Positions 8,755 to 54,418 of a stretch of 54,500 nucleotides of DNA are shown piece after piece. The stretch comes from Clostridia bacterium. Lineage in GTDB: Bacteria; Bacillota; Clostridia; Oscillospirales; Acutalibacteraceae. Location of the stretch: assembly GCA_017407645.1 (NCBI GenBank), contig JAFQWE010000015.1, positions 1 through 54,500 on the forward strand. The letters are read 5' to 3'. Each line of letters opens with the position of its first letter. Positions within the stretch are counted from its first letter, which is position 1. Below the pieces are notes generated by a model that had not been told where the DNA came from, did not search any database, and was given only the letters and a program-made list of their open reading frames with translations. Position numbers and translations under genes: made by a program.

Positions 8755-8761
8755 TAGTCCA

Positions 8762-9013
8762 AACGCAGTGATGAAGAAAAGTAGTTGTGCTTTTTCATTC
8801 CCAGAGAGGTGCCGTCATCGGCTGCAAGCGGCGCTGTTTTGATTACACGATGAAGTTCCCTTCGGAGCGGTGGGACTGAATTAACAGTAGGTCCTGACGG
8901 GTTGCAATTCCGTTACAGATTGCGGGAGTGTATGCTTCTTTTCAGCATAAATAAGGGTGGTACCGCGGAATTTGTTTTTTCGTCCCTTGCATTGTTAATG
9001 CAGGGGACTTTTT
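8762..9013 (+). promoter_or_regulatory. T-box leader (Phe) upstream of pheST
   Basis: The 322-base gap before pheS is filled by a T-box. Visible parts are the stem I start with AGTA (near 8780), the conserved AGAGAG of the stem I apical region (near 8802), a GAAGTTC segment with a TTC phenylalanine codon as likely specifier (8856-8858), the T-box consensus AGGGTGGTACCGCGG (8954-8968), and a terminator hairpin (8982-8993 with 8997-9008) followed by TTTTTATTTT. Uncharged tRNA-Phe would pair with the specifier and the GGTACC-side bulge, stabilise the antiterminator and turn pheST on. The specifier position is inferred from sequence layout, not from a computed fold. Confidence 0.92.
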
Positions 9014-52166: not shown

Positions 52167-52859
52167 ATGCGTTCTGACTATTTAAAAGGAATGTATCACG
52201 GCTTGCCTATCGGTCTGGGGTACCTTTCGGTATCCTTTGGGTTTGGCATAACCGCCGTTAACGCAGGACTTTCTGTGCTTGAAGCAGTGGGAATATCACT
52301 GACCAACCTTACCTCTGCAGGTCAGGTTGCAGGCGTTGCAATTATTGCCGCCGCAGGCACGCTGATTGAAATGATAATCACCCAGCTTGTTATAAATATT
52401 CGCTATTCGTTAATGGCTATTTCCCTTTCACAAAAGGTTGACGGCTCGTTTAACACTTTGCAACGATTACTTGTTTCCTTTGGCATAACCGACGAAATCT
52501 ATGCCGTTGCCATTGCTCAGCCTAACAAAATAAGTGCCACCTATATGAAAGGACTTATTCTTACCCCAATGATTGGTTGGGTGTGCGGCACTTTGCTGGG
52601 TGCAGTTGCAGGCAACCTTTTGCCCCAAATGCTGACGGCAACAATGGGTATTATGCTTTACGGTATGTTTATTGCAATTATCCTGCCCCCCGCTAAAAAG
52701 CAGCATTCAATTATTCTTGCTATCGGCCTTGCAGTTGCTATAAACACCCTGCTGTATTACTGTCTGCCTATGATTAACAGTGGCTTTGCGGTGGTTATAA
52801 GCGCCCTGCTTTCATCAGTGGTTACTGCCCTCTTCTTTCCTGTAAAGGAGGGTGAATGA
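52167..52859 (+). CDS. azlC: AzlC family branched-chain amino acid exporter, large subunit
   Basis: This 230-residue membrane protein has about seven hydrophobic segments and the AzlC features GLPIGLGYLSVSFGFGITAVNAGLS and IIAAAGTLIEMIITQLVINIRYSLMAISLSQKV near 65-100. AzlC with AzlD forms a two-subunit exporter of branched-chain amino acids. The stop overlaps the azlD start by 4 bases, as expected for subunits made together. Ribosome binding site AAGAGGTT. Confidence 0.95.
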   Translation: MRSDYLKGMYHGLPIGLGYLSVSFGFGITAVNAGLSVLEAVGISLTNLTSAGQVAGVAIIAAAGTLIEMIITQLVINIRYSLMAISLSQKVDGSFNTLQRLLVSFGITDEIYAVAIAQPNKISATYMKGLILTPMIGWVCGTLLGAVAGNLLPQMLTATMGIMLYGMFIAIILPPAKKQHSIILAIGLAVAINTLLYYCLPMINSGFAVVISALLSSVVTALFFPVKEGE

Positions 52860-53158
52860 TGAGCGTTATTATCTATATAGCCGTTATGGCAGGTGTTACA
52901 TATCTTGTAAGAATGTTGCCCTTCACCCTGTTCAGAAAACAAATAAAATCGCAGTTTATCCGCAGTGTGCTTTATTATCTTCCCTACGCGGTGCTTGCGG
53001 CAATGACCTTTCCCGGTATTTTTTACTCAACAGGAAACACTGTAACCGCTGCAGTCGGCACTTTGGTAGCCCTTGTGCTTGCATACTTTGATTTGCCGCT
53101 TATCGTTGTTGCCATTGCGGCGGCATTATCTGCTTTTGGAGTAGGATTTTTAGTTTAA
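52856..53158 (+). CDS. azlD: AzlD family branched-chain amino acid exporter, small subunit
   Basis: This 100-residue protein has about four hydrophobic segments and the family motifs GVTYLVRMLPFTLF and LYYLPYAVLAAMTFPGIF near 40-58. It starts with the ATGA overlap from azlC behind GGAGGGTGA. It completes the AzlCD exporter and ends in a strong terminator. Confidence 0.95.
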   Translation: MMSVIIYIAVMAGVTYLVRMLPFTLFRKQIKSQFIRSVLYYLPYAVLAAMTFPGIFYSTGNTVTAAVGTLVALVLAYFDLPLIVVAIAAALSAFGVGFLV

Positions 53159-53212: not shown

Positions 53213-53455
53213 TTATTTCTTTTTTGTTAATAAGAGAATTAAGGCTGCTATAACTCCGGAGGGAATAAGAGAAAGAAAAGCCGGTTGATAAAAAACGGTT
53301 GTCATAAGTACGCCGAATCCTATACAGAAACACAAGCCAAGAATACCTATCCACAGTTTTTTGCGAACAATACCGGCTGCTAATGACAGGCTTCCGCAAA
53401 AGCCACCAATTACAAATCCCCCAATAGCAGCAGTTATCAATTGAAACGAATTCAT
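53213..53455 (-). CDS. Small membrane protein (80 residues)
   Basis: Started at ATG 53453-53455 behind GGCGGTGAT, this encodes MNSFQLITAAIGGFVIGGF and three hydrophobic segments (about 5-27, 31-51 and 54-75) ending in LLTKKK. I do not recognise a family. The upstream frame back to 53503 lies in the promoter and is excluded. It is transcribed from a TTGATT-17-TATACT promoter whose -35 box touches the first palindrome of the neighbouring array. Confidence 0.75.
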   Translation of the reverse strand: MNSFQLITAAIGGFVIGGFCGSLSLAAGIVRKKLWIGILGLCFCIGFGVLMTTVFYQPAFLSLIPSGVIAALILLLTKKK

Positions 53456-53474: not shown

Positions 53475-53503
53475 AGTATAGCATAAAAGCGGAAATAAAT
53501 CAA
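53475..53503 (-). promoter_or_regulatory. Promoter of the 80-residue gene at the array boundary
   Basis: TTGATT (53498-53503) and TATACT (53475-53480) on the minus strand, 17 bases apart. The TTG of the -35 box is the end of the first palindrome of array A. The lipoprotein gene at 53812-54372 has the same hexamers and spacing. Confidence 0.7.
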
Positions 53504-53712
53504 TGCGAAGCATTGTATCTCATCAATTCCGCAAGGAATTGCATATCATCAAAACTTTAGTTTTGTATATCATCAACGGTGTAACCGTTGCATATCATCA
53601 TTGCGAAAGTTTTTTGATACACGCTAAAGCGTGATGATATACAGTCCTAACGGACTGATGAGATACAACACGGCAACGCCGTGTTGATGATATACCATTG
53701 CTTTCGCAATGG
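53501..53712. repeat. Array A: different palindromes joined by a constant linker
   Basis: Palindromes, each a perfect hairpin with a 2-4 base loop: 53501-53515, 53525-53540, 53550-53565, 53574-53590, a degenerate one near 53600-53610, 53620-53633, 53642-53657, 53666-53686 and 53695-53712. Their sequences differ. Between them is a near-constant linker of about ten bases: GTATCTCATC, GCATATCATC, GTATATCATC, GCATATCATC in the left half, and its reverse complement GATGATATAC, GATGAGATAC, GATGATATAC in the right half. The period is about 22-29 bases. This occupies the 356-base gene-free stretch 53456-53811 together with a promoter and terminator; no gene is seen there. Confidence 0.88.
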
Positions 53713-53715
53713 ATA

Positions 53716-53749
53716 AAAAAATTCCAAGTCCGAAGACTTGGAATTTTTT
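53716..53749 (-). terminator. Terminator of the lipoprotein gene, beside array A
   Basis: A perfect 15-base stem (AAAAAATTCCAAGTC with its complement) with loop CGAA, T-runs on both strands. It lies 63 bases past the lipoprotein stop and immediately to the right of array A. Bases 53750-53811 show nothing recognisable. Confidence 0.85.
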
Positions 53750-53811
53750 GGATAGTTTGAACTTAATGACACGAATGAAAGAACTCTGAAAACCGAGAAT
53801 TTTCTTTAGTT

Positions 53812-54372
53812 TTAATCTATATACAGTTGTTGATAGATGCCCACAAGTTGCAAAGCCCATTCTTTTTGCATTTCATACTCATAGTCAGCCACAATGGGAC
53901 CTACTACCGTGCCAGCGCCATAAATTGTTTGCAAGGTTTTAAGATAATTTTCGCACTGCACTTGATTATATTTTTCCCAGTTTGTCTTCATATTTGAAAC
54001 AAAAGTATGCAAATCTTCTGATGAATAATAATTTTCATTGGGTGTAATAATGCCGTCGTATTCCAATATTTTAATATAATACTCATCAGCAACTTGTTGC
54101 CACTTCTGTGTATATTTATCAGCAAGCTCAACCATTCCGACGGTAGTGCTTGATTCAGGCAATTTGGATTCTTCGGCATAAGCACCGTCAATCTCACGAA
54201 TAAGTTTTTCTGTCAACGACTCCTCAATAGTATTACTCTCTACAACTTGATCAGAAGAAGATGTACTCGTACTTGTATTCGTGTCCTCATTATCAATATT
54301 CGCTTTTTGACATCCGGATAATAAAGATACAAACATCAATACCACACAAAAGAAAACGATTATTCTTTTCAT
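53812..54372 (-). CDS. Lipoprotein, possibly LprI/DUF1311-like
   Basis: This 186-residue protein has a signal peptide MKRIIVFFCVVLMFVSLLSGC with lipobox LSGC (cysteine 21), a Ser/Thr/Asp-rich linker (to about 50) and a helical domain. The last 60 residues (MKTNWEKYNQVQCENYLKTLQTIYGAGTVVGPIVADYEYEMQKEWALQL) follow the pattern of lysozyme-inhibitor LprI-type (DUF1311) domains, though only one cysteine is present, so no disulfide as in the classical family. The ATG follows GAGGTGAGC. Palindrome arrays lie on both sides. Confidence 0.8.
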   Translation of the reverse strand: MKRIIVFFCVVLMFVSLLSGCQKANIDNEDTNTSTSTSSSDQVVESNTIEESLTEKLIREIDGAYAEESKLPESSTTVGMVELADKYTQKWQQVADEYYIKILEYDGIITPNENYYSSEDLHTFVSNMKTNWEKYNQVQCENYLKTLQTIYGAGTVVGPIVADYEYEMQKEWALQLVGIYQQLYID

Positions 54373-54389: not shown

Positions 54390-54418
54390 AGTATAGCAGA
54401 AAACTAATGTTAAATCAA
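54390..54418 (-). promoter_or_regulatory. Promoter of the lipoprotein gene at the boundary of array B
   Basis: TTGATT (54413-54418) and TATACT (54390-54395) on the minus strand, 17 bases apart, identical in hexamers and spacing to the promoter at 53475-53503. The TTG comes from the first palindrome of array B. Confidence 0.7.

Follow-up and report, generated by a model that had tools for sequence, protein, structure and literature searches.

A Hairpin Array with a Mid-Array Linker Flip in a Clostridia Contig, Candidate Structured End of an S23-Linked Cassette Element Behind tRNA Genes

Described systems closest to the array

Integron cassettes are small genes arranged in tandem, each of which has its own structured site (attC), with the newest cassette placed beside a fixed anchor (attI). 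The array family described here was recognized in the window, i.e., the whole stretch of DNA analysed (54,500 nt, the entire contig C40 of genome G000), and shares with the integrons the tandem small genes, each with a structured site, as well as the position of a new cassette next to the anchor (locus L150), but it differs in that its site is a hairpin array of approximately 200 nt, its anchor is a tRNA 3' end, many of its cassettes have a promoter-like site, and no PF00589 gene lies within 60 kb of the arrays of the window's own type (family A) in 14 genomes. REP/BIME elements are short intergenic hairpins found in many copies, with a conserved palindrome and a RAYT transposase. The array family is also composed of short intergenic hairpins in many copies, although its constant part is the linker and not the palindrome, and Y1_Tnp is missing from 10 of 22 genomes. 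Unlike those of CRISPR, the "spacers" of these arrays are palindromes of a limited repertoire which recur across genomes, and no cas match (Pfam) was obtained for either window gene that neighbours the array.

A closer likeness is offered by Gut-1, a non-coding RNA which, in the part of its description consulted here, was found solely in human gut sequence (PMC2864571). The type B and C arrays fit the 77-nt Gut-1 model over their left half, with three hairpins and UGAAAU-type linkers, and matches to it (RF01706) that reach the gathering score were obtained at 4 of 24 array or S23 loci, in arrays of types B/C, i.e., L058 (twice), L150, L030, and L249, the last of which has the match between a tRNA-Tyr and the S23 gene. 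Family A, however, has another linker, and the flip, the terminator, the tRNA site, and the S23 gene are absent from that same part of the Gut-1 description. The first-pass annotation of the window had stated that no such element was described, which is nearly right, since the sister arrays match Gut-1 whereas the window array has no match either at the gathering score (50 bits) or at an E-value of 1; no published description of such arrays was found in the open-licence literature, bioRxiv preprints excluded.

The other close system is the 23S rRNA IVS of Coxiella, an RNase III-excised sequence with complementary ends and S23 in its loop (PMC4990558), and in the portion of that source consulted, the origin of IVS-type elements is called unclear, while a role of the ORF in mobility is mentioned as having once been proposed. 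The relatives of the window array share with it the protein family PF05635, as well as the inverted complementary arms that surround S23 at 11 of 30 S23 loci. They differ in that they sit behind tRNA genes, not within 23S rRNA, and have hairpin arrays with repeated linkers, while the S23 gene of family A, where present, lies outside the array, and other copies have unrelated cargo.

Anatomy of the array and layout of its relatives

The array, at 53501-53712, consists of eight perfect hairpins (stems of 5-9 bp, loops of 3-4 nt) separated by linkers of 9-10 nt, of which the four on the left are TATATCATC-like and the three on the right are their GATGATATAC-like reverse complements (Table 1). Nine palindromic units had originally been counted, and eight of these are real, whereas the ninth is a half-hairpin, ATTGCGAAAG, complementary to the outer hairpin. 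When one mismatch is allowed, the window contains 16 linker matches, against a mean of 3.09 and a maximum of 8 in 100 shuffles, and the RNA fold of the array reaches -84.3 kcal/mol, against -49.4 +/- 4.6 in shuffled sequences (z -7.5), with none of 200 shuffles equally low. The recurrence of the linker and the stability of the fold are not due to chance.

Read on the - strand, the order is a terminator-like stem of an A-tract and a T-tract, p1, three linkers with p2-p4, and the p1-complementary centre, past which come p5-p7 (with one extra unit in the window), the linker now reversed, the TTGATT box, a spacing of 17 nt, the TATACT box, and a gene of ~80 aa. The element is larger than was first stated, being bounded by a terminator on one side and by a -35/-10 promoter on the other, and it is accompanied by a second array, which precedes a 186-aa lipoprotein-like gene in the same arrangement as the first. 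No S23-family protein is encoded in the two copies of the window (ORFs, Pfam), neither copy was seen beside a tRNA on this contig, which stops within the second array, and no match to rRNA was found in the window.

Table 1. Positions of the array, its flanking signals, and the neighbouring cassette in the window.
Feature	Position	Strand	Basis or remark
Cargo gene, ~80-aa membrane-like protein	53213-53455	-	no Pfam match
Promoter-like site at array edge: TTGATT 53498-53503, 17 nt, TATACT 53475-53480	53475-53503	-	sequence
Hairpin p7, inner end of array, overlaps -35 box	53501-53515	-	
Hairpin p6' (extra unit)	53524-53541	-	sequence parse
Hairpin p6	53550-53565	-	sequence parse
Hairpin p5	53574-53590	-	sequence parse
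Centre / flip point, half-hairpin CTTTCGCAAT complementary to p1 5' arm and loop	53600-53609	-	
Hairpin p4	53620-53633	-	sequence parse
Hairpin p3	53642-53657	-	sequence parse
Hairpin p2, 9-bp stem	53666-53686	-	sequence parse
Outer hairpin p1 (- strand: CCATTGCGAAAGCAATGG), leftmost unit when the array is read on -	53695-53712	-	conserved first hairpin, 53 parsed elements
Left-hand linkers TATATCATC	53566-53574, 53516-53524, 53542-53550, 53591-53599		linker matching
Right-hand linkers GATGATATAC	53686-53695, 53657-53666, 53633-53642		linker matching
Terminator-like A-tract/T-tract hairpin, outer end of element (CC, then AAAAAATTCCAAGTC...)	53716-53749	-	
Upstream cassette 3' end (..CTCGGTTTTCAG..ATTCGTGTCATTAAGTTCAAACTATCC)	53750-53797	-	sequence; near-identical in L124 by eye
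Upstream-cassette cargo gene, 186-aa lipoprotein-like	53812-54372	-	no Pfam match above curated cut-off
Upstream-cassette promoter-like site: TTGATT 54413-54418, 17 nt, TATACT 54390-54395	54390-54418	-	sequence
Second array, same family, degenerate, cut by contig end	54413-54500	-	sequence

Elsewhere in the window, a T-box leader was matched at 8759-8990 (RF00230, 126 bits), and two ORFs at 52167-53158, adjoining the cassette, resemble a branched-chain amino acid exporter of the AzlC/AzlD type. Contigs also end at or in arrays, as occurs in the window (54500), L016, L012, and L169, and short-read assemblies probably undercount such arrays for this reason.

A search for linker arrays in related genomes had been proposed, and arrays with the same flip proved to be common in uncultured Clostridia. 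The left-end pattern was found in at least 124 elements at at least 119 loci, in Clostridia or groups within them, mostly in MAGs from the gut of ruminants and other animals; within the order, the pattern is present in 32 of 394 genomes and 20 of 169 genera, with up to nine copies per genome, while a reversed control pattern had none across the order, among the matches listed. The flip of linker orientation in the middle of the array, which the first-pass annotation had reported for the window, is conserved, with the order +++--- in 68 of 125 arrays and most of the remaining arrays one or two linkers off, among the matches listed.

The 53 distinct elements that fit a whole-element pattern (those not fitting it being left out) were parsed unit by unit. 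In these, p1 and the centre are complementary at 478 of 504 positions, against a mean of 0.59 when they are swapped between p1 types, and the two exceptions, L044 (853-1030) and the second array of L118 (6357-6560), look chimeric, as if two arrays had recombined between p1 and the centre. The palindromes, once described as freely variable, instead have a limited repertoire at each position, such as the CAATTCC stem at p6 (23 of 53) and CACGC at p2 (24 of 53). The pairing of the variant linkers GTATCTCATC and GATGAGATAC, which had been read as a matched pair, does not hold in the relatives, in which 31 of 53 elements have the left variant, 3 have the right one, and none has both; the window's own variant match falls outside the 53, its parse having ended before the fourth right-hand linker.

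A promoter of the same kind is present at the array edge in 31 of the 89 elements examined, compared with 20 of 2000 windows taken at random, and at the outer end a terminator-like stem is present in 108 of 117 relatives, with 53 different stem beginnings. The commonest of these beginnings is shared by 13 elements that follow tRNAs of five isotypes, as if it were carried along with the element. A search of the same loci for arrays formed by flipped repeats of any 7-mer recovered AATGATG, ATGAAAT, AATGAAG, ATGAAGC, AGTGATA, and other linkers, and no such array was found in 60 shuffled loci. Arrays may also stand in a row with genes between them, as in L164, which has two D-type arrays and a degenerate A-type array, and one of the genes between these resembles, by eye, the gene behind the A-array of L058.

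Ten cargo genes of other copies were tested, of which three had matches above the Pfam cut-off (a polysaccharide deacetylase, a HAD hydrolase, and a DUF386 protein), two had weak matches, and five had none. Carriage on phages or plasmids was rejected, since neither the phage nor the plasmid collection had a match to the element at an E-value of 0.001; one IMG/VR contig has the left-end pattern. Separately, the stretch 7804-8461 of L184 has dozens of partial copies across its genome (G096), and is apparently another high-copy repeat family.

Placement behind tRNA genes and evidence for movement

Among the matches listed, 117 elements have at least 150 nt of upstream sequence, and an intact tRNA gene on the same strand lies directly 5' of 62 of these, representing 15 isotypes, whereas none of the 117 has a tRNA on the opposite strand in this position. 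In these 62 elements, the distance from the tRNA end to the array is 27-43 nt; the density of tRNAs in the element loci is 118 per 851,653 bp. The terminator stem begins on the A of the CCA in 57 of the 62, against 17 of 53 element-free tRNAs of the same loci. By itself, this exact start proves little, because native terminators often begin at the CCA too, as they do in G277 and G424, and the terminator may be partly host-derived.

The other 55 elements have no intact tRNA, and the stem is present in 47 of them, of which 18 have GTTC within the 42 nt before the stem (547 of 5000 random windows), a possible remnant of the T-arm. Downstream of the array, the tRNA 3' end, from the T-arm onward, is repeated over 21-27 nt in 3 of 51 elements tested (L035, L082, and L108), which fits a crossover in the T-loop better than a bare junction at the CCA. 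A 12-nt match to tRNA-Cys in L058 was rejected as a tRNA copy, given that a similar cassette end occurs in L164.

The clearest trace of movement comes from 53 candidate gap pairs, of which L149/L150, L068/L116, and the L136 group were inspected at the nucleotide level. In the first of these, a tRNA-Val pair from two species of one genus, the CCA of L149 runs straight into the A-array, while in L150 a stretch of 1,003 bp, containing a terminator, a B-type array, an S23 gene, and a small ORF, lies between the CCA and the same A-array, with no duplication of the T-loop. This is the one fully clean empty site, and it is that of a sister (B) array. A 276-bp indel that distinguishes L068 from L116 lies upstream of the tRNA, and was judged to be unrelated.

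Less clean differences were found in other genera. At a tRNA-Trp of another genus, an E-type array with S23 is present in G039 and G083 and a different sequence in G064 and G101, and the alignment of the filled and empty loci stops at the CCA or 7 nt beyond it. At a tRNA-Cys of a third genus, G096 has an A-array, and G277 and G424 have none. In the genus around G412, no empty site was found, owing to differences between the downstream flanks. Insertion at a tRNA gene that is left intact is seen in the relatives (62 of 117, and L150), and the early suggestion of a structured element or hairpin-accreting mobile sequence is borne out by the cassettes with arrays behind tRNA genes and by the empty site.

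Some further arrangements were observed at tRNA-like sites. In L240, an S23 gene and, by eye, an GTGATATT-like array lie directly behind a tmRNA (2046-2404, - strand), the 3' end of which is tRNA-like. The S23 genes of L223, L228, and L236 lie between inverted simple-repeat arms just 5' of a tRNA-Leu, perhaps within the tRNA transcription unit. A second tRNA-linked insert, of ~150-200 bp, occurs in L136 (1200-1560, reverse complement), L072 (2700-3030), L099 (6457-6820, reverse complement), and L254 (2560-2900), with the order tRNA, terminator, inverted copy of the tRNA 3' end, and direct copy, followed by an array in three of the four loci, and in L254 it occupies the place of the E-array of the congeners.

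The S23 protein and the competing explanations

The gene that recurs behind the A-arrays encodes an S23 protein (PF05635, 2.5e-19; PDB 2rld, 1.3e-17), which is the first ORF in 13 of 89 family-A arrays under a strict regex, and contig C39 of the window's own genome carries an A-array followed by S23. This protein, of ~115 aa, has to our knowledge no catalytic role, and its family is found in 58 of 117 genomes of the order and in none of 14 control genomes.

The link was also approached from the protein, using 30 loci, each being the best-scoring PF05635 match of one of 30 genomes. A flip array lies directly upstream of S23 at 10 of these, with six different linkers, and eight of the 10 are within ~70 nt of a tRNA on the same strand, while L231 is at ~190 nt and L238 is near a contig end. 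The inverted repeats on both sides of S23 at 11 of the 30 loci were recognized by at least 12 shared 8-mers, against a shuffled mean of at most 2.4. Two loci with the flip array 3' of S23 (L226 and L232) were excluded from the upstream count, and L246 is truncated by the contig end; at five others (L234, L235, L237, L245, and L247), S23 is preceded by four or five linkers of the GTGATATT type.

A tree of 54 S23 proteins, built by a quick method, accounts for the array labels with 16 changes, fewer than in any of 200 shuffles (mean 29.3). The family-A proteins form one clade (node value 99), as do those of the GTGATATT type (98), while the ATGATG, GTGATG, ATGAAG, and GTGAAG types are mixed, and the D, E, F, and G linkers are not separated. 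Three changes are needed for label group A, on account of two rows within its clade to which the motif count gave a wrong label, L009 (B) and L034 (type 1); both belong to family A by eye, and the computed labels were used for the tree. The clustering by array type may reflect co-transmission rather than binding.

The family has a conserved layout, a position directly behind tRNA genes (in one case, by eye, a tmRNA gene), a clean insertion after the CCA at one locus, and cassettes in tandem, and it is linked to S23 across several linkers, with the S23 proteins of family A in a single clade. With modest confidence, we favour the reading in which the array is the structured end of an S23-linked mobile cassette element directed to tRNA 3' ends, and the window array is best read as a cargo-carrying copy of this element, without S23.

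The layout proposed for such an element, on the - strand, would be CC followed by an AAAAAA-terminator, p1-p4 joined by TATATCATC, the p1-complementary centre, and p5-p7 with the reversed linker, with the -35 box at the array edge and then S23 or another gene. The S23 protein may bind its own array of linkers and hairpins, folded as single-stranded DNA or as RNA, and may carry it to a tRNA gene, at the CCA end of which an enzyme of the host, or one acting in trans, would join it. The terminator would allow the tRNA to tolerate the insertion, the promoter would express either S23 or the captured cargo, and the two cargo copies of the window could have been moved in trans, for example, by the S23 protein encoded behind the C39 array of the same genome.

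It is unlikely, although it deserves more weight than the other alternatives, that the array is the attachment site of a tyrosine recombinase acting at the tRNA T-loop, with the linkers as arm-type sites and the cassettes gathered, as in integrons, by an unlinked integrase. The copies from the T-arm to the CCA downstream of 3 of 51 arrays are as expected from such an enzyme, as are the tandem cassettes, with a new one beside the tRNA as at attI, and PF00589 genes are present in 13 of 14 array-bearing genomes. They are nevertheless unlinked to the A-type arrays of these genomes, near which none was found, being on other contigs or more than 60 kb away (G197 and G219; also G059), so that a linked integrase was rejected, and the window's genome, which is 71% complete, has none. 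With a crossover in the T-loop, each of the 15 isotypes would require its own matching acceptor half, and such a crossover was set aside as the main model, given that it fits 3 of 51 elements and not the clean insertion after the CCA in L150, which lacks a T-loop duplication; arm-type sites would also leave the hairpins, the complementarity of p1 and the centre, and S23 unexplained.

A role as RNA, with the array as a non-coding or cis-regulatory RNA like Gut-1, spread by ordinary recombination and transcribed by read-through from the tRNA, is rather improbable, even with the Gut-1 matches in sister arrays (4 of 24 loci) and the very stable fold of the window array. With a terminator-like stem on one side of the array and the promoter-like site of the next gene on the other, neither transcription unit need include it, and for this reason a role as DNA seems likelier than one as RNA; the insertion after the CCA in L150 also speaks against this alternative.

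Still less credence is given to an IVS-like retro-element, in which RNase III would cut out a folded transcript, a reverse transcriptase would copy it back, and S23 would act in the manner of Avd. In the part of the source consulted, PF05635 is said to resemble the Avd protein of diversity-generating retroelements and to be structurally homologous to it (PMC10053308), and the Coxiella IVS, with S23 in its loop and its excision by RNase III as far as its source was consulted (PMC4990558), offers a precedent, as do the S23 genes between inverted arms 5' of the tRNA-Leu in L223, L228, and L236. On the other hand, among 22 genomes (18 with family-A arrays, two with other arrays beside S23, and two with S23 between inverted repeats), RVT_1 was found in five, including 3 of the 18, and its absence from 17 of the 22 led to the rejection of a reverse transcriptase acting in trans.

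Finally, the mobilization of a REP/BIME-like family by a RAYT or an IS200/IS605-type Y1 transposase is very improbable and was rejected, for while hairpins and a single-strand logic would suit it, and Y1_Tnp (PF01797) occurs in 12 of these 22 genomes (9 of the 18 with family-A arrays), including that of the window, it is absent from the other 10, and from 9 of the 19 that are at least 90% complete, and differing palindromes with constant linkers are the reverse of REP, while the placement behind tRNAs also speaks against it.

For the S23-linked element that is favoured here, a broader claim can be put forward tentatively, i.e., that it represents a new class of mobile elements, in which folded arrays with a group-specific linker, and S23 as the sole factor encoded by the element, home to the CCA of tRNA or tmRNA genes, where they form cassette rows like those of integrons, with the 23S IVS as relatives stranded in rRNA and Gut-1 as a fragment of an array. 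The element may be a new form within the S23/IVS kind, or it may be a class of its own.

Such an element would provide a natural context for two orphans, the S23 proteins, which have been described as without known function, and the Gut-1 RNA. The old idea that the S23 ORF has a role in mobility is now directly testable, because a likely site (the array), a target (the tRNA 3' end), and a pair of filled and empty loci can be named. For the uncultured gut Clostridia, it would represent a widespread and apparently unnamed route by which small genes are gathered behind tRNAs.
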